Part shown: positions 3,033 to 16,700 of the stretch, piece after piece
Layout: each line of letters starts with the position of its first letter
Numbering within the stretch: the first letter of the stretch is position 1
Source of the DNA: Megasphaera geminata F0357
Lineage (GTDB): Bacteria; Bacillota; Negativicutes; Veillonellales; Megasphaeraceae
Direction: 5' to 3'
DNA length: 33,765 bases
Assembly (NCBI RefSeq): GCF_000239275.1
Contig: NZ_JH417603.1
Span: 54,016 to 87,780, forward strand
Made by a program: the position numbers and the translations under genes
The notes under the pieces: generated by a model
What the model saw: the letters and a program-made list of their open reading frames with translations, nothing else
Told to the model about the DNA's origin: nothing
Database searches by the model: none

Positions 3033-4106
3033 CTATTCGCGCGCCCGCATTTTTTTACGCGCCGCTTCAAGTACGCGCTTTGCAAGCGCCGCATCGCCCA
3101 ATGCGTCGATTACGGGACGGATGTTCGATTCGACGATAATGAGCTGCGCCCCCTTTTCACTGAAACCGCGGCTCATCAGATAGTAGAGCTTATCCTTGTC
3201 AATCTGGCCGGCGCTGCTGGCATGATTCCCTTCCATGTCGTCTTCTTTGCAAAGCAGAAGAGGCAACGATACGGCGTGTACCCGGGGACTCAGCAGCAGG
3301 CATTCGTCCGTTTCCGAACCGACCGCTTTTTTGCAGCCGCGCAGGAAATCGATAGTACCGCGAAAATTCTTTTTCGACCTGTCCGTAAGGGCACCGGTCG
3401 CGAGGATATCGGCATGTGATTTTTCGCCTTTCTGCGCCACCCAATATGAAAAATCGAGAACCTGCTCATCATGACCGATGTACATGGCGCGGCTGCCGAA
3501 CTTGCTTTCGGCGCCGTCAAGATCCGTCTTGTAATACAAAATAACCGCCCGGCTTCCCAATTCGGCATTTACATAGCGGACATCGCTGTTTTCCCCGGAA
3601 CGGACATAGCGATGTTCAATATGGCGTACATGTTCGCCGTTGAACTGCACTTTTTTTACGGTCACTTTAGCGCCTTTCGCCGCTTCAATGTATTCCGCAA
3701 TATTTACGGCGCCGTTTTTTGCATCTCCTTCAAAAAGAAGATATACTTCCACCTCACTGTTGGCGGCCGCTTCAATTTTCAGCTGCGCCGCAAGATAGGG
3801 AACGGCTTCGCTTACGTTATACGTCAGGCGCACGGAACCTTTAGCCCCCTCGGGAACCGTGACGGAACACCCGTTCATGCTGTGATTCAAGGCGTCGCGC
3901 AGCGATTCGCCGCTTGCCCCGGCAAAATCACCCAAATCGTCAAGGCCGTTCCCCTGATAAAAAGAAACGGTCACATCGCCGACCGTCCGGTTTTCTATGT
4001 CGACGGACGGAAGATACGGCGCTTCCTGCCGTTCCAATTCCAGGTGATTGACCTTCATCCAGCGGAAGGTAGGACGAGGCAGTTCGTTGTACAGTTCTTT
4101 ACTCAT
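3033..4106 (-). CDS. sufD: Fe-S cluster scaffold complex subunit SufD
   Basis: SufD pairs with SufB in the SufBC2D scaffold that builds Fe-S clusters. The 357-residue protein shows the beta-helix core common to SufB and SufD, with EYIEAAKGAKVTVKKVQFN, and the C-terminal helical part LMSRGFSEKGAQLIIVES that is also found in SufB and helps bind SufC. The start at 4106 has GGGAGGG just before it and lies 13 bases after the sufB stop; an ATG 4 bases earlier runs into a stop after three codons and is not used. It is shorter than enterobacterial SufD, as is normal in Firmicutes. Confidence 0.93.
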   Translation of the reverse strand: MSKELYNELPRPTFRWMKVNHLELERQEAPYLPSVDIENRTVGDVTVSFYQGNGLDDLGDFAGASGESLRDALNHSMNGCSVTVPEGAKGSVRLTYNVSEAVPYLAAQLKIEAAANSEVEVYLLFEGDAKNGAVNIAEYIEAAKGAKVTVKKVQFNGEHVRHIEHRYVRSGENSDVRYVNAELGSRAVILYYKTDLDGAESKFGSRAMYIGHDEQVLDFSYWVAQKGEKSHADILATGALTDRSKKNFRGTIDFLRGCKKAVGSETDECLLLSPRVHAVSLPLLLCKEDDMEGNHASSAGQIDKDKLYYLMSRGFSEKGAQLIIVESNIRPVIDALGDAALAKRVLEAARKKMRARE

Positions 4107-5560: not shown

Positions 5561-6307
5561 CTATTGCAACCGCGTCCTGTAGATGTCATATCCGTGGGCT
5601 TCGATTTCACCGATGAGAGCCGCCCCGTCGGTCCTGACAATTTTGCCGTCCAGAAGGATGTGCACGAAATCGGGTTTTAAGTACTGCAAAATTTCGCTGT
5701 GATGCGTAATGATAAGGACCGCGTTTCCCGCGTCGTGATACCGGGAAACCGTTCCGGAAACAACGCGGACCGCATCGACGTCCAGACCGGAATCGATTTC
5801 GTCAAGCATGGTCAGCTTCGGTTCAAGCATACACATCTGGAGAATTTCCGTTTTCTTCCGTTCACCGCCGGAAAAACCGTCGTTCACGTACCGTTCGGCA
5901 TAGGACTTGTCCATCAGGAGCTGATCCATTTGCGCGCGCAGCTTCTTGCGGAACGGCATAATGCGTTGTGTTTCTCCCGAAACGGTGCTCTTGGCATTGC
6001 GGATAAAATTTTCCACACTGATCCCCTGTACGGCGATAGGATTTTGAAAAGCCATGAAGATACCGAGCTTGGCACGCTCGTTAACCGGCATATCCGTTAT
6101 ATCGGCGCCTTCAAAATAGATCCTGCCGCCGGTTATGCGGTATGCGGGATTCCCCATAATCGCATGAAACAGAGTTGACTTACCGGCGCCGTTAGAACCC
6201 ATGATCACATGTATTTCACCTTTATTAATCACCAGATCGAGTCCCTTAAGAATATCCTTTCCTTCCACGGTTACCTTAAGGTTTTCCACTCGTAATAATT
6301 CACTCAT
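5561..6307 (-). CDS. sufC: Fe-S assembly ATPase SufC
   Basis: SufC is the ABC-type ATPase of the SufBCD scaffold. The 248-residue protein has the Walker A motif GSNGAGKST, a Q-loop at AFQNP, the ABC signature FSGGERKK, Walker B LTMLDEIDSGLD and the switch histidine in ITHHSE. It is the first gene of the operon, behind a promoter at 6357-6385 and AGGAG at 9 bases before ATG. The order C-B-D-S-U differs from the C-D-S-U-B order of Bacillus. No Fur-like or IscR-like site is obvious to me in the 70-base leader. Confidence 0.96.
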   Translation of the reverse strand: MSELLRVENLKVTVEGKDILKGLDLVINKGEIHVIMGSNGAGKSTLFHAIMGNPAYRITGGRIYFEGADITDMPVNERAKLGIFMAFQNPIAVQGISVENFIRNAKSTVSGETQRIMPFRKKLRAQMDQLLMDKSYAERYVNDGFSGGERKKTEILQMCMLEPKLTMLDEIDSGLDVDAVRVVSGTVSRYHDAGNAVLIITHHSEILQYLKPDFVHILLDGKIVRTDGAALIGEIEAHGYDIYRTRLQ

Positions 6308-6409: not shown

Positions 6410-6619
6410 CTACTCATTATTTTCTTTTTCATCGTCATCCATACCGTATTTATCACGCAGTTTCCGCCGTTTATCGCTATGCAGCCAAAGCTGCATGAGT
6501 ACGGTGGTGCAGGCCAGGATAAGGAGCCCGCCGAGCAGGGCCGACATTCCTTCTTTATTAATTGCATATAATAAATATCCGAAAACGACAACCCAGAGAA
6601 AAATCCGCAGCTTACTCAT
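6410..6619 (-). CDS. Small membrane protein coupled to the SCIFF maturase
   Basis: This 69-residue protein has two likely membrane segments (about residues 5-19 and 27-43) and a charged tail with RRKLRDKYGMDDDEKENNE, which is expected in the cytoplasm. I do not recognise a family. Its ATG lies inside the last codons of the maturase gene, an 8-base overlap (ATGAGTAA), so translation is probably coupled. That position suggests a job in the same locus, possibly with the membrane or export side of the peptide, but nothing in the sequence proves it. There is no clear terminator between it and the suf promoter that starts 25 bases further on. Confidence 0.65.
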   Translation of the reverse strand: MSKLRIFLWVVVFGYLLYAINKEGMSALLGGLLILACTTVLMQLWLHSDKRRKLRDKYGMDDDEKENNE

Positions 6620-8015
6620 TTATCACGGCCCGCCTTTCTTCGGCCTTTTTCATGGCAATGACGGCCTGAATATACATGGCGCATTCAATGCGTTTTTTCT
6701 GAATCTGACAGCCCATCTCATAAGGCGTTTCCATACTGCCGCCATACTTGATATTATTGGCATGACAGCCGCCGCTGCAGAAAAATTTGGCCCAGCATTT
6801 GCAGCATGCCGGCTTGTTGAGAACGTGCATATCCCGGAAACGCCGGGGCAGGACGGTATCGGTAATGCCGTCGTACACATTGCCGACAATATACGCTTCC
6901 TGCCCGACGAACTGATGACACGGATAAATGTCCCCGTTCGGCACGACGCACATGTATTCATGTCCCGCACCGCAGCCGCGGAGACGTTTGGCAATGCACG
7001 GGCCCCTGTAAAGATCCATGATAAAGTGGTAATAGACAATCGGATTCCCGCTGAAATACCGCTCCAGATACAGGTCGGTCAGGGCTTCATATTCTTTATA
7101 AACACGCGGCAAATCGGTCGCGTCAATAGCATAAGACAGATCGTCGCCGACGACAGGCTCCATGGAGAGTCCTTCAAAGCCGAGGTCCGCCATATGTTCC
7201 ACGTCAGTTGCAAAATCAAGATTATACTTTGTATACGTGCCCCGCACATAATACTCTTCACCGTTGCGCCGGGCGACGGCTTTCTTTAAATTTTTCACCG
7301 TCGCGGCATATGAACCGCGCCCGCCCGCATCGGGACGCATACGGTTATGTACGCTTTCACGGCCGTCCATGCTGAGGATCAGGCTGATGCGGTTGTCCGT
7401 AAGGTATTTGATTTTAGCCTCGTCGAGGAGCGTACCGTTTGTCGTCAGGGACAGCTTGAATACCTTGTCATGGATTTTTTCCTGTTCCCGGATGTAGGCA
7501 ATCGTTTGTTTCACGACATCAAAATTCATGAGCGGTTCGCCGCCGAAGAAGTCGACCTCACAGTGCCGCCGTTTGCCGGCGGAGCTTGCTATGAGAAAAT
7601 CAACGGCCGCCCTGGCGACATCGAAGCTCATGAGCTCGCGTTTATGCGTATCATAATCCCCCTGCGAGGCAAAGCAGTATTTACAGCGCAGATTACAATC
7701 ATGAGCGATATTGAGACAGAGTGATTTGACGACGGGTTTTTCGTCGGCCACGACTTCAAAGGCTTCACACATGGGCGCAAAAAGCATTTCCGCCCTGATG
7801 AGTTCATCCAGTTCGGCCATGGCTTCCGTCAGTTCTTCACGTCCGTACCTGCCGGCAAGGGCTGTGTAAACAGCCTCTTTATTATGCCCCGTATATGTAT
7901 CGAGTATATCGTACGTGACGGCGTCAATGACATTAATGATGCCGCTGTTTACATCAAGCAGCATATGCACGCCGTTCTGAATATATTTATGGATCATCGG
8001 TCCGATTTTTTCCAT
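6612..8015 (-). CDS. scfB: SCIFF peptide radical SAM/SPASM maturase
   Basis: The enzyme should install thioether bonds between cysteines and acceptor residues of the SCIFF precursor encoded just upstream. At about 467 residues it has a PqqD-like leader-recognition region at the N-terminus (HKYIQNG, LLDVNSGIINVIDAV), the radical SAM motif CNLRCKYC (Cys107, 111, 114), FFGGEPLMNF, and a SPASM region with CGAGHEYMCVVPNG, CHQF and CCKCWAKFFCSGGC, typical of SCIFF maturases. Two adjacent ATGs (8018 and 8015) follow GGAGG; the second has the better 7-base spacing. An in-frame TTG at 8033 would swallow the ribosome site and is unlikely. It overlaps the next gene by 8 bases. Confidence 0.93.
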   Translation of the reverse strand: MEKIGPMIHKYIQNGVHMLLDVNSGIINVIDAVTYDILDTYTGHNKEAVYTALAGRYGREELTEAMAELDELIRAEMLFAPMCEAFEVVADEKPVVKSLCLNIAHDCNLRCKYCFASQGDYDTHKRELMSFDVARAAVDFLIASSAGKRRHCEVDFFGGEPLMNFDVVKQTIAYIREQEKIHDKVFKLSLTTNGTLLDEAKIKYLTDNRISLILSMDGRESVHNRMRPDAGGRGSYAATVKNLKKAVARRNGEEYYVRGTYTKYNLDFATDVEHMADLGFEGLSMEPVVGDDLSYAIDATDLPRVYKEYEALTDLYLERYFSGNPIVYYHFIMDLYRGPCIAKRLRGCGAGHEYMCVVPNGDIYPCHQFVGQEAYIVGNVYDGITDTVLPRRFRDMHVLNKPACCKCWAKFFCSGGCHANNIKYGGSMETPYEMGCQIQKKRIECAMYIQAVIAMKKAEERRAVINE

Positions 8016-8031
8016 CATGTTTCCTCCATAC

Positions 8032-8066
8032 AAAAAGAATACCCTTTACCGAAAATGGTAAAGGGT
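8032..8066 (-). terminator. Hairpin between SCIFF precursor and maturase (attenuator-like)
   Basis: Perfect 10-base arms ACCCTTTACC (8041-8050) and GGTAAAGGGT (8057-8066) enclose a 6-base loop. Read on the minus strand the stem is followed by ATTCTTTTT (8040-8032), a weak T tract. It starts 17 bases after the scfA stop and ends just before the scfB ribosome site, so it may stop most transcripts after the peptide gene or protect the 3' end of a short peptide mRNA. Confidence 0.75.
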
Positions 8067-8082
8067 GTCCCCTCCTGAAAAC

Positions 8083-8223
8083 TTATTTTGTGCAGACCTG
8101 GTTGCCTACCGTGCAAGATGTCTTGCAGGCGGACTGGCAGGAGGTCTGACATTCGCTGCACCCTGTGTGCTGAGCCGTTTTCTGGATAGATTCCGTATTA
8201 ATCGTGATAATATGCTTTGCCAT
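8083..8223 (-). CDS. scfA: SCIFF (six cysteines in forty-five residues) ranthipeptide precursor
   Basis: This 46-residue peptide is the substrate of the downstream maturase. It starts MAKHIITINTESI, a conserved SCIFF leader, and has six cysteines at positions 22, 25, 29, 33, 37 and 44, interspersed with Thr, Ser, Gln and Ala residues that are the usual thioether acceptors. The ATG at 8223 has GAGGTG 7 bases before it, and its own promoter lies at 8255-8283. The stop TAA is at 8083-8085. Ranthipeptides of this type are linked to quorum sensing and regulation in Clostridia; whether that holds here is inference. It is very short and easily missed by gene callers. Confidence 0.95.
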   Translation of the reverse strand: MAKHIITINTESIQKTAQHTGCSECQTSCQSACKTSCTVGNQVCTK

Positions 8224-8254
8224 GTCGGTTCACCTCACTACTGGTATCTGCTGT

Positions 8255-8283
8255 ATTATAGCACAGAAATATGTTTTCCACAA
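8255..8283 (-). promoter_or_regulatory. Promoter of the SCIFF precursor
   Basis: TTGTGG (8283-8278) and a perfect TATAAT (8260-8255) are 17 bases apart on the minus strand. The -35 box starts 4 bases after the stop of the upstream 131-residue gene, so the precursor can be expressed independently of it. Confidence 0.75.
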
Positions 8284-8286
8284 TCT

Positions 8287-8682
8287 TTATAAAAGGCGCA
8301 GGCCTTTAAACTGATAATCCCTGCTCATCGTAATCACGATAGCATAATCGCCGAATATTTCATTTGTCGCAAAAAAGACATCGAAGTCGCCGTTATACGT
8401 TACATAAACGGAATTGATCCGCTCCAGGTACGCGCGGATCTGATCCGCCGTAATTTCCGGCTCGCCGTCATTGCGCCACCGCTCGTTCTTAAATTTGGCC
8501 AGAAGCGGCGCGTGCGCCATGACCCGCAGGCGATGGCTCAAGATCCACTCCCATACAGCTTCACTGTACGTTTTGGCTTCTTTACAGCGCCCTTCTTCCA
8601 ATCCTTCAAGTACGAATAGGACGGGCCTGCCTTCTACGGGAATTTCATCGATATAGCTGCCCTTGACATAGCGTAAATTCAT
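8287..8682 (-). CDS. Uncharacterised 131-residue cytoplasmic protein
   Basis: I do not recognise a family. The protein is soluble, with no signal peptide or membrane segment, no cysteine cluster beyond a single Cys33, and an acidic/aromatic mix (WEWILSHRLRVMAHAPLL in the middle, NGDFDVFFATNEIFGDYAI near the end). It starts at ATG 8682 with GGAGG 8 bases before it and its own promoter at 8743-8772. It lies directly before the SCIFF precursor on the same strand, with 63 bases between them. The closeness makes a role in the same locus possible, but the separate promoter for the precursor argues that they can be uncoupled. Confidence 0.75.
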   Translation of the reverse strand: MNLRYVKGSYIDEIPVEGRPVLFVLEGLEEGRCKEAKTYSEAVWEWILSHRLRVMAHAPLLAKFKNERWRNDGEPEITADQIRAYLERINSVYVTYNGDFDVFFATNEIFGDYAIVITMSRDYQFKGLRLL

Positions 8683-8742: not shown

Positions 8743-8772
8743 ATCTTACTCTATCGTCTTTTCCCTTGTCAA
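8743..8772 (-). promoter_or_regulatory. Promoter upstream of the 131-residue gene
   Basis: A perfect TTGACA (8772-8767), overlapping the end of the nth reading frame, is followed after 18 bases by TAAGAT (8748-8743) on the minus strand. Confidence 0.6.
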
Positions 8773-10259
8773 TCAATACCGTTCTTTCTGTTCCCGGCCG
8801 TACTCGACGGACAGAGATCATTTTGAAAGCAGGTTTCACATAACGGCTTACGGGCCTTGCAAATACGCCGGCCGTGCCAAATAAGCCAGTGATGGGCCCG
8901 GCTCCACCACTTCCGGGGAATGGCCTTTTGCAGCCCCTTTTCCACCGCTTCGGGCGTAGTTCCCGTCGCCAGCCGCATCCGGTTGGAAACACGGAATACA
9001 TGCGTATCCACGGCGATAGCCGGTATACCGAAAAGGACGCTCACAAGCACGTTGGCCGTTTTTCTGCCGACGCCCGGGAGCTTGACGAGTTCATCGAAGG
9101 TATGCGGCACTTCGCCCTTATACTGCTTGCAGAGGATGGCGCAGGTATTCATAATATTTTTCGCCTTGCTGTGATAGAGGCCGCATGTTTTAATTTTATC
9201 TTCCAGGCCGCGCAGGCCGAGCTGCAGGATTTTGTCGGGGCTGTCGTAGGCTGGGAAAAGATCGGCCGTGACAATATTGACCCGTTCGTCGGTGCATTGC
9301 GCCGAAAGGACAACCGCCACGAGCAGTTCGAAATTTGAATGGTACAGGAGGGCCGGTTTCATGATTCCGTATTGATCCTGGAAGCGTTGCAGCATTTCGT
9401 CTTTCTTTTTTTTCGATAGTATCATTCTAAGTTCCTCTTTCTTCACGTCCGGCGTTTCATTCAAACTGCCCGTTTTATATCCGTTCAAATCCAGGGTGAC
9501 ATACGTGAACCCGACGGCCTTTATTTTCGCCGTAATTTCTTCCCGGTGCGCCAGAATCGCTTCAAATTCATCCGTCCCGGCTTCAATGCGGGCGACGTCG
9601 TCGTGATAACGGACGCGCAATGAACCGTTCACGTAAGGAGCCAACACGTTTTCGGCGGCATCAATCTGCGCCAGCCTGTGCAAAGTAAGCGCCGTCCCGT
9701 AAGGGACACGGCTGGCAAGGCAGGCGGCGCTCTGTTTATTCCATGTCGGCAGGCCGAAACGGCGGGATAACGCGCGGATATCCGCCTTGGCAAGAGCCGC
9801 GTCCACCATGGGGCTGCAGACGCTGCCGGCCAGCTCCGCCAGGGCTTTCATGCCGGGGCGGAAGTCCTTCAGATCATCCGTATTGCTGCCGTCCGCAACC
9901 CACGTATAGCCGTTGGCCCGCGCAAAATCGACGAGCTCCGCAAAGCGGATTTTCTTACATATATAACAGCGGTCGACACGGTTTTCGACAAAATTTTCGT
10001 CGGCAAACTCCGAAGACGGGACAAGGACGTGGGGTATACCGATTTTTACCGCCATGTCCCTCGCTTCTTGCCGCTCTCCTGCCGGTAAGGTGGCCGATAA
10101 AGCCGTTACGGCGACGGCTTTGCTGCCGAGAGCCTCATGTGCCGCGTAAGCGAGAAACGTACTGTCCACACCGCCGGAAAAAGCCACGGCAACGCTGCCG
10201 AGATCACGCAGGATACGGCACAATCTGTCATATTTTCGAAGAAGGTCACTGTGTACCAT
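8769..10259 (-). CDS. LarE-like sulfur transferase joined in frame to endonuclease III (Nth)
   Basis: One 496-residue reading frame holds two complete enzymes. Residues 1-278 are LarE-like, an ATP-dependent protein that gives the sulfur of its own cysteine to the nickel-pincer cofactor: PP-loop SGGVDST at 28-34, CYIC at 98-101, and the likely donor Cys180 in AACLASRVPYG. Residues 279-496 are endonuclease III, a base-excision glycosylase: helix-hairpin-helix LPGVGRKTANV with the catalytic Lys, the catalytic Asp in VDTHVFR, and the 4Fe-4S ligands C-X6-C-X2-C-X5-C near the end. The ATG at 10259 has GGAGG 9 bases before it. The joint falls exactly at the natural ends of both proteins and an internal ribosome site precedes the Nth part, so Nth is probably also, or only, made separately. 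No lactate racemase gene is in view. Confidence 0.85.
   Translation of the reverse strand: MVHSDLLRKYDRLCRILRDLGSVAVAFSGGVDSTFLAYAAHEALGSKAVAVTALSATLPAGERQEARDMAVKIGIPHVLVPSSEFADENFVENRVDRCYICKKIRFAELVDFARANGYTWVADGSNTDDLKDFRPGMKALAELAGSVCSPMVDAALAKADIRALSRRFGLPTWNKQSAACLASRVPYGTALTLHRLAQIDAAENVLAPYVNGSLRVRYHDDVARIEAGTDEFEAILAHREEITAKIKAVGFTYVTLDLNGYKTGSLNETPDVKKEELRMILSKKKKDEMLQRFQDQYGIMKPALLYHSNFELLVAVVLSAQCTDERVNIVTADLFPAYDSPDKILQLGLRGLEDKIKTCGLYHSKAKNIMNTCAILCKQYKGEVPHTFDELVKLPGVGRKTANVLVSVLFGIPAIAVDTHVFRVSNRMRLATGTTPEAVEKGLQKAIPRKWWSRAHHWLIWHGRRICKARKPLCETCFQNDLCPSSTAGNRKNGID
9423..9437 (-). promoter_or_regulatory. nth: Internal ribosome site and start for nth
   Basis: GAGGA (9437-9433) lies 7 bases before an in-frame ATG (9425-9423) that would give a 218-residue Nth, close to the 211 residues of the Escherichia coli enzyme. 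An A-run of eight bases follows within the first codons. Confidence 0.6.
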
Positions 10260-14321: not shown

Positions 14322-16700
14322 TTATTTGCGCAAATCGTCCTTAAGCGCTTCCAGTTCCCGGCGCAGCTGATTGATAAGAGCATCCTGCGCGTCATCACGG
14401 GCTTTCAGCTCCTTGTTTTCGGCAGTCAGATCCTGCACCTTGCTCATCAGTCCGGAACGCGTCGTCCCGCCGTTAACGCCGGGCCCCACTTTAAGCGATA
14501 TGCCCGCATTGACCATACCGCCGCCGTCGCCTATGGAAGCGCCCAGACTGAACATGGTCACTTCATTGGGACGGTAAAACGCGCCGATAGCCATGGCATT
14601 GGCATTGCGGTAATTCCCCATGCCTGCGGCAAAATCCCATTTGTAAGCGGGATCATAATCAAGAGGGTGCAGCGCCGCCAAAGCGGCCGCCCCTGCCCCG
14701 ACCTTATTGATCCTGCCGTCCAACTGATTGATGCGATCGTTTACGCCGTCAACCCGACCGCTCAGAGTGCCTATTTGGGCGTCTACGGAATCCATCCGGC
14801 CGTCCAGGGAGGTGACGCGCGTATCCAGTGTCCCCACCTGTGTATTAAGTGTCCCTACCTGTATATTAAGTGTCCCTACCTGTGTATTAAGTGTTCCTAC
14901 CTGCGTATTAAGTGTTCCTACCTGCGTATTGAGCGTTCCTACCTGTGTATTAAGCGTTCCTACCTGTGTGTTAAGCGTCCCGACACGGCCGTCAAGAGCC
15001 GTCACTTTATCATCCGTGACCTTCAGCTGCTCTTCCGTCGCCGCACGGCCCGCCTTCGCAAAGTCGGGCGCCGTAAGCGTCTTATTGGTCAGCCCCTTGA
15101 TCGTGGACTGTCCCGTTTCCCCGTTGATGACGACATCCCCGGCGGTGACTTTCTTGCCTTCAATGGTCGTGGTTCCCGCCGACGCGATACCGGCAGCTTT
15201 AAAGGTCGTGACCGTTTTTTCGATCTTCATGCTGTTGCTGCGTCCGCTGCCGTCGTCAACGGCTTGGTATATATATTTCTTATCGACGGAAAGAGCGCTG
15301 TCCCCGACATTGGTGGCCAAGCCGCCTCCGTCAAATTTCAATCTGCTTTGCGTATCGGGATTTACCTTTAAAATCTCCGTCCGGACGGTGCCGCCGTCAA
15401 TCTCCGTGTAATGTTCGGACGCCAGAGACTTGTCACTGACCCGGACAACGCCGTCTTTGACCGTCGTCGTCTTGCCCGTATTGTTTCCTAAACCGTCCGT
15501 GCCCGATACGGTCAGCCCGTCCTTATTAAACTCCATGGTTTTAGAAGGCTGGAACATGCCGCCCTTGGCGTTTGCCGTAATCGTGCCGTCATTCCCGTTG
15601 AGATGGATATTGCTCGTCGCCGCATCATGATTGCCGCCCAGATATACATCGTCTTTCAGTGAAACCGTATTATCCGCACTGACACTGATGTTACTGCCCG
15701 CTTTTACGGCGGAAGCCCCCGCGACGGCAGCTTTTAACTGCGCCACGTTAACGGCATCCGTATCTTCCGAGCCGGCGGCGATTCCCGTAATCTGCCGCGT
15801 TACGGGAGCGGGATTACCGCTTCCGTCCGTACCGTTCACATTTCCTACGGAAATCGCATTGGCCGTGGACGTCCAGGCCGCCCCGGTCCGGGCCGCCGAT
15901 TTCAAATAGCCGTCTTTGCCGGCTTCGCGGTCGGCACGTGAGCCGCTGCCCAGGGCCACGGTATTTTCCACGGCCGCTACGGCGCCGTTACCGACGGCGG
16001 CGGATCCCGTTGCGGCAGCCAGGGTCCGACCGCCCAAAGCGGCCAGGGAGTTGTTTCCGGCCGCGTCGGAAAATTCTCCCATAGCGACGGCGGATCTGCC
16101 GCCTGCAACCGTATCCTGTCCGAAGGCGGTCGCCGCCTCGCCGGTCGCCTTATTGTTCTGTCCGAAAGCGGCGGCACTCTGTCCGGACGCGGTGTTCTGC
16201 GCCCCGAAGGCGGTAGATGCCTTGCCCGACGCGTTTGTCTTATAGCCGAAAGCGGTCGCATTGTCGGCCGACGCCTCCGTCATCTGCCCGAAGGCCGTTG
16301 ACGCCTGTCCGGACGCGACGGACTTCTCACCGAAAGCCGTAGCTTTTTTTCCCGTGGCTACCGTTTTATGGCCGAAAGCGGTGGCTGCATCATTGGCCGC
16401 TCTCGCCTCTTTTCCCCAGGCCATCCCGTACTGATACGTCTGAGCCGTCGTGGTCTCATATTCCCCGTCATATCGTTTTGTTACAGACATACCTGCAGAC
16501 GTCCCGCTGCCCAAAGCCGTATTATATGAACCGCCGGTCTTGGTCACATCATTATAAGAGCCGCCCCAATATAAGTTATAATAATCACTTGCAACCAGAT
16601 TTCCGACAGACGCCGCCTCCGCGTTCATGCCGCAAGTGCAGGCAATTACCGCCAAAGCGGTAATTATCCTTTTTGAATACGGGCATTTCATTGTATTCAC
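14322..16700 (-). CDS. YadA-type trimeric autotransporter adhesin
   Basis: This 792-residue protein should form a trimeric adhesin anchored in the outer membrane. It starts at GTG 16700 with AAGGGGG 6 bases before it. Residues 1-29 are a signal peptide (hydrophobic core ITALAVIACTCG, cleavage after NAEA). Residues of about 90-235 are 14-residue head repeats of the type TAFGxxxxASGxxA. A neck (QITGIAAGSEDTDAVNVAQL) lies near 305, and a second neck-like motif with AATEEQLK near 555. A coiled-coil stalk follows, with eight VGTLNTQ-type heptads (573-628). Residues 668-739 are the membrane anchor, with WDFAAGMGNYRNANAMAIGA. Unusually, 53 residues follow the anchor, forming a further coiled coil (LTAENKELKARDDAQ). 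Own promoter and terminator. Ligand unknown. Confidence 0.95.
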   Translation of the reverse strand: MNTMKCPYSKRIITALAVIACTCGMNAEAASVGNLVASDYYNLYWGGSYNDVTKTGGSYNTALGSGTSAGMSVTKRYDGEYETTTAQTYQYGMAWGKEARAANDAATAFGHKTVATGKKATAFGEKSVASGQASTAFGQMTEASADNATAFGYKTNASGKASTAFGAQNTASGQSAAAFGQNNKATGEAATAFGQDTVAGGRSAVAMGEFSDAAGNNSLAALGGRTLAAATGSAAVGNGAVAAVENTVALGSGSRADREAGKDGYLKSAARTGAAWTSTANAISVGNVNGTDGSGNPAPVTRQITGIAAGSEDTDAVNVAQLKAAVAGASAVKAGSNISVSADNTVSLKDDVYLGGNHDAATSNIHLNGNDGTITANAKGGMFQPSKTMEFNKDGLTVSGTDGLGNNTGKTTTVKDGVVRVSDKSLASEHYTEIDGGTVRTEILKVNPDTQSRLKFDGGGLATNVGDSALSVDKKYIYQAVDDGSGRSNSMKIEKTVTTFKAAGIASAGTTTIEGKKVTAGDVVINGETGQSTIKGLTNKTLTAPDFAKAGRAATEEQLKVTDDKVTALDGRVGTLNTQVGTLNTQVGTLNTQVGTLNTQVGTLNTQVGTLNIQVGTLNTQVGTLDTRVTSLDGRMDSVDAQIGTLSGRVDGVNDRINQLDGRINKVGAGAAALAALHPLDYDPAYKWDFAAGMGNYRNANAMAIGAFYRPNEVTMFSLGASIGDGGGMVNAGISLKVGPGVNGGTTRSGLMSKVQDLTAENKELKARDDAQDALINQLRRELEALKDDLRK
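14817..14984 (-). repeat. Eight tandem 21-bp repeats in the adhesin stalk
   Basis: Eight units of 21 bases, each coding one heptad VGTLNTQ or a close variant (VGTLNIQ, VGTLDTR). Units differ mostly at third positions. Since 21 bases is one in-frame heptad, gain or loss of units changes stalk length without breaking the frame. Confidence 0.95.

Follow-up and report, generated by a model that had tools for sequence, protein, structure and literature searches.

SCIFF ranthipeptides have been described as a clostridial family (PMC8326336, PMC8172795). The closest described systems are CteA/CteB (thermocellin) of Clostridium thermocellum and Tte1186a/Tte1186, and for CteA, Cys32 is reported as the thioether donor and Thr34 and Thr37 as acceptors (PMC8326336, PMC8172795). 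In the literature searched, we found no paper linking SCIFF with Negativicutes, and none on SCIFF with secD or on TIGR04086. Here, we analyzed a stretch of 33,765 nucleotides (referred to as the window) that contains a SCIFF locus from this class. On the basis of current results, the locus is probably a standard two-gene SCIFF operon that carries a dedicated promoter and an intergenic hairpin, and the genes that flank it are not conserved partners.

SCIFF precursor and maturase genes

The precursor gene scfA (positions 8083-8223, minus strand) encodes a peptide of 46 residues with six cysteines, MAKHIITINTESIQKTAQHTGCSECQTSCQSACKTSCTVGNQVCTK, which exceeded the cut-offs of both TIGR03973 (76.8 bits; cut-off 50) and PF13165 (79.6 bits; cut-off 27) in profile searches. 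Adjacent to it, scfB (6612-8018, minus strand) encodes a 468-residue radical SAM/SPASM maturase that reached 578.6 bits against the SCIFF maturase profile TIGR03974 (cut-off 425) and 516.9 bits, below the cut-off of 855, against the ScfB-like orphan family NF040492. Thus, the original prediction of a SCIFF precursor together with its radical SAM/SPASM maturase was borne out by all three SCIFF profiles. The scfB gene was read from an ATG, with an alternative in-frame TTG possible at 8033. The nearest solved structure was PDB 5WGG/5WHY, with which residues 7-452 of ScfB could be aligned (E = 8e-145). The radical SAM motif CxxxCxxC (C108, C112 and C115) and the SPASM-region cysteines were kept in the alignment with 5WGG and were invariant in the ScfB alignments of relatives.

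Comparison with the described systems revealed that the window maturase shares its radical SAM and SPASM cysteines with CteB and Tte1186, whose chemistry is treated in the cited reports (PMC8326336, PMC8172795), and that the precursor resembles CteA and Tte1186a in its six cysteines and in a CKTSCT core, which includes the reported donor cysteine and both acceptor threonines. By position in the alignment, C33 of the precursor corresponds to Cys32 of CteA, and T35 and T38 correspond to Thr34 and Thr37. The donor and acceptor residues for a Cys-to-Thr non-alpha thioether are thus found in the precursor sequence, and ScfB is predicted to link Cys33 to either Thr35 or Thr38.

Reading downstream on the minus strand, the gene order is a LarE/endonuclease III ORF (8769-10259), a 131-residue ORF, scfA, scfB, a 69-residue ORF and sufC (5561-6307). 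The four ORFs from the 131-residue to the 69-residue one were all conserved as proteins in 16 genomes of the Megasphaera family, so none of them is a chance ORF. Other genomes of the family had scfA sequences with 89-98% identity, and ScfB shared 82% identity with its Megasphaera micronuciformis F0359 counterpart, which identifies the host as a Megasphaera relative. Two further observations were made in the window. LarE and endonuclease III read as one 496-residue ORF (8769-10259, minus strand); in four other loci (L005, L011, L013 and L100) nth has an ORF to itself (209-227 residues), and eight consecutive A at the junction leave room for a sequence error. In addition, positions 14322-16700 (minus strand) encode a protein resembling trimeric autotransporters, in which VGTLNTQ is repeated in tandem and the C-terminal end is anchor-like; such a protein fits a diderm host.

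Distribution and inheritance of SCIFF in Negativicutes

A class-wide search identified scfA in 279 of 300 Negativicutes genomes, including 221 of the 227 near-complete ones. In the Megasphaera family, scfB was found in 16 of 17 genomes, the exception being only 82% complete. None of eight genomes lacking scfA that were checked had a ScfB over the cut-off, indicating that precursor and maturase are present or absent together. We also built a maximum-likelihood tree of ScfB with 86 rows, in which all 34 Negativicutes sequences grouped together, apart from those of Clostridia and with a single MAG nested inside, and in which ScfB followed the host tree. The nested MAG sequence (L147), labelled Acholeplasmataceae, was placed next to G046 and probably represents a mislabelled or contaminated contig.

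Considering both the occurrence of scfA in the great majority of genomes and the agreement of ScfB with the host tree, SCIFF is, as judged from these sequences, a vertically inherited core trait of the diderm Negativicutes. A diderm host had previously been considered noteworthy for SCIFF; diderm hosts are in fact the rule in this class, in which scfA is near-universal. The role of SCIFF should therefore be sought as a core function, independent of the Sec genes that adjoin it in Clostridia.

In Clostridia, the secDF gene lies directly 3' of scfB in 33 of 57 named loci, and a TIGR04086 membrane protein gene precedes scfA in 29 of 57, often with yajC and tgt; among loci L125-L179, scfAB lies between the TIGR04086 gene and secDF in about half. 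In contrast, none of these four genes recurred beside scfAB in the Negativicutes loci sampled, where neighbors, named from reading the ORFs, varied by lineage. For example, gap-pgk-tpi adjoined scfAB in Selenomonadaceae, and a tRNA-like sequence preceded scfA in a family neighboring the Megasphaera family (f3). In Veillonella, Sporomusa and family f10 (L092, L093, L096, L102-L106 and L116), hypF-(hypC)-hypD-hypE followed scfB at a distance of 10-54 bases, a recurring link of SCIFF to hydrogenase maturation across families. No dedicated exporter, peptidase/protease or immunity gene recurred beside scfAB in the Negativicutes lineages sampled, which would fit a housekeeping or signaling peptide that acts inside the cell or leaves it by a general route.

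Promoter and hairpin of the scfAB operon

The gap of 63 bases between the 131-residue gene and scfA contains a promoter, TTGTGG-N17-TATAAT with a TG-extended -10 element (8255-8283, minus strand), which starts 3 bases past the stop of the 131-residue gene. Phylogenetic footprinting with 15 aligned relatives showed that TTGTnGA, TnTGnTAnAAT and the ribosome site were the invariant part of an otherwise variable gap. All but one of the 17 family genomes carried the promoter pattern at scfA; elsewhere it matched only twice in all of these genomes together. A generic promoter scan did not list it, its -35 element matching at only 3 of 6 positions. A regulon sharing this motif was also considered and rejected, as each genome has the pattern at essentially no site other than scfA. 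Because the footprinted pattern has been kept at scfA, it is very likely that scfAB starts its own transcript, with scfA transcribed from this extended -10 promoter.

Between scfA and scfB we identified a terminator-like hairpin (8041-8066, minus strand) with a 10-bp stem, ACCCTTTACC/GGTAAAGGGT, followed by ATTCTTTTT (folding z of the gap, -4.4). Such a hairpin was found in the scfA-scfB gap of 16 of 17 loci in the Megasphaera family, 44 of 47 in other Negativicutes and 35 of 52 in Clostridia. The only miss in the family, L006, has the same stem, with the start codon chosen inside the tail. Among controls from the same loci, hairpins occurred in 4-6% of dinucleotide shuffles and in 19-25% of other same-strand gaps, the latter being a mix of operon and non-operon junctions. 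For the excess of hairpins, Fisher P values were 1e-5, 9e-17 and 6e-11, values that overstate independence since the loci are related. The hairpin was conserved in place rather than in sequence, with unrelated stems in other Negativicutes and in Clostridia. Within the Megasphaera family most stems share one sequence; the covariation there comes mainly from a single clade whose stem differs.

In operons of other RiPP precursors and enzymes, a hairpin 3' of the precursor gene is taken to set the ratio of peptide to enzyme. The SCIFF hairpin likewise lies between the peptide gene and the enzyme gene, and it was recognized by its position across loci of two classes. No paper joining SCIFF with a terminator was found in the literature searched. 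The hairpin may pass only part of the transcripts into scfB, or may stabilize a short scfA message, and in this way the precursor would be made in excess of the enzyme. Several clostridial hairpins, which are less regular as a group (35/52), have long stems and a weak T run, and these would suit a role in stabilizing cleaved scfA mRNA, as a 3' end or processing element, rather than termination. However, in most Negativicutes at least five T lie no more than 8 bases from the stem, and we consider the processing element possible but the less probable function. Whichever applies, the scfA promoter together with the hairpin ahead of scfB provides a simple, testable regulatory feature that is worth carrying forward.

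Flanking genes and the question of SCIFF partners

The 131-residue and 69-residue genes had been proposed as two partners of the SCIFF locus. In the Megasphaera family the order of 131-residue gene, scfA, scfB and 69-residue gene was complete in all 16 genomes with scfB. It should be noted that sufC downstream and nth upstream were also retained wherever the fetched DNA extended far enough; since they are equally syntenic, the conserved order is no special evidence for partnership. Most SCIFF loci in the class lacked both flanking genes; these genes lay beside scfAB only in their own family and not in most Negativicutes genomes, and in relatives they were found at unrelated positions. Thus, the partner proposal did not hold for the class, and a false lead of two 'partner' genes is removed.

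The 69-residue gene (6410-6619, minus strand) encodes a membrane protein with two hydrophobic spans, and its predicted 8-base overlap with scfB is real (6612-6619). Its start overlapped scfB in 12 of the 16 family genomes (by 8 bases in 10, and by 4 and 14 in the other two) and lay 4 to 24 bases behind the scfB stop in the remaining four. These overlaps make co-expression with scfB, and translational coupling to it, plausible within the family, where the gene may be a family-specific operon member. This is the sole part of the partner idea that is left; a partner role as such is unsupported. The more specific suggestion of an export partner gained no support either, and the exporter candidate was rejected given that the protein had no family match in profile searches and no class-wide linkage.

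The strict four-gene block (16/16) and the frequent overlap (12/16) nevertheless exceed what accidental adjacency needs, and count against the reading of a standard two-gene operon. They could reflect a three-gene operon specific to Megasphaeraceae, in which the 69-residue protein has been recruited as an anchor, receptor, exporter or immunity protein for SCIFF. The gene always adjoins scfB in the family, and the upstream promoter and hairpin place it in the scfAB transcript. A broader survey argues against this. The gene adjoined scfB only in its own family in the class-wide search, and its family was weakly recovered elsewhere in the order, with a probability of 97.7% in a profile comparison between its own family and the recovered homologs. 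A reverse search with the recovered proteins matched 51 of 61 genomes overall: every other family of the order had homologs, and 14 of the 17 genomes of the gene's own family gave the copy beside scfB. The homologs of Veillonella, Dialister-like and f3 genomes have unrelated genes as neighbors, for example one resembling exodeoxyribonuclease III (names again from reading the ORFs). Moreover, G200, a genome that is 99% complete and lacks both scfA and scfB, still has a homolog. Considering also the little weight of adjacency next to equally syntenic sufC and nth, we regard such recruitment as rather improbable. Under the standard two-gene operon, the 69-residue gene would encode a small Veillonellales membrane protein, its place behind scfB in this family would be happenstance, and the two may be translated together. 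A wider scheme is put forward as a doubtful possibility: SCIFF of diderm Firmicutes would be a core peptide that lacks an exporter of its own, its dosage would be set by the position-conserved hairpin of the two classes, and the 69-residue protein would have joined the Megasphaera-family transcript to serve as a receptor or anchor specific to that lineage.

The 131-residue gene (8287-8682, minus strand) encodes a soluble protein that we do not count in the SCIFF operon. A four-gene functional locus, in which the two flanking proteins would both be partners, would account for the 16/16 conservation in the family; it is very improbable, as the scfA promoter stands directly after the 131-residue gene, this gene follows nth without scfAB in family f3, and SCIFF loci in the rest of the class have neither flank. 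The gene was found in only 20 of 300 class genomes, with one additional marginal match (E = 0.003, broken frame). In four f3 genomes it lies directly after nth, and scfA is about 467 kb away in one of them (G088); the remaining three have it on a different contig. A SCIFF partner role for its product was therefore rejected, and the gene is better described as a neighbor of nth. Its product matched PF10020 (DUF2262, function unknown) at 30.1 bits, a marginal likeness that exceeds the cut-off of 29.8 by 0.3 bits, and 15 of 17 aligned family members matched DUF2262 at E of 0.1 or better. The structural model, a confident one (pLDDT 92), is alpha/beta, with no significant Foldseek match in PDB and an uninformative best VIA-align Z of 4.5. 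No paper on DUF2262 was found in the literature searched. In one family locus (L008, genome G005), the 131-residue gene is split by a frameshift (3162-3553) and scfAB is intact.
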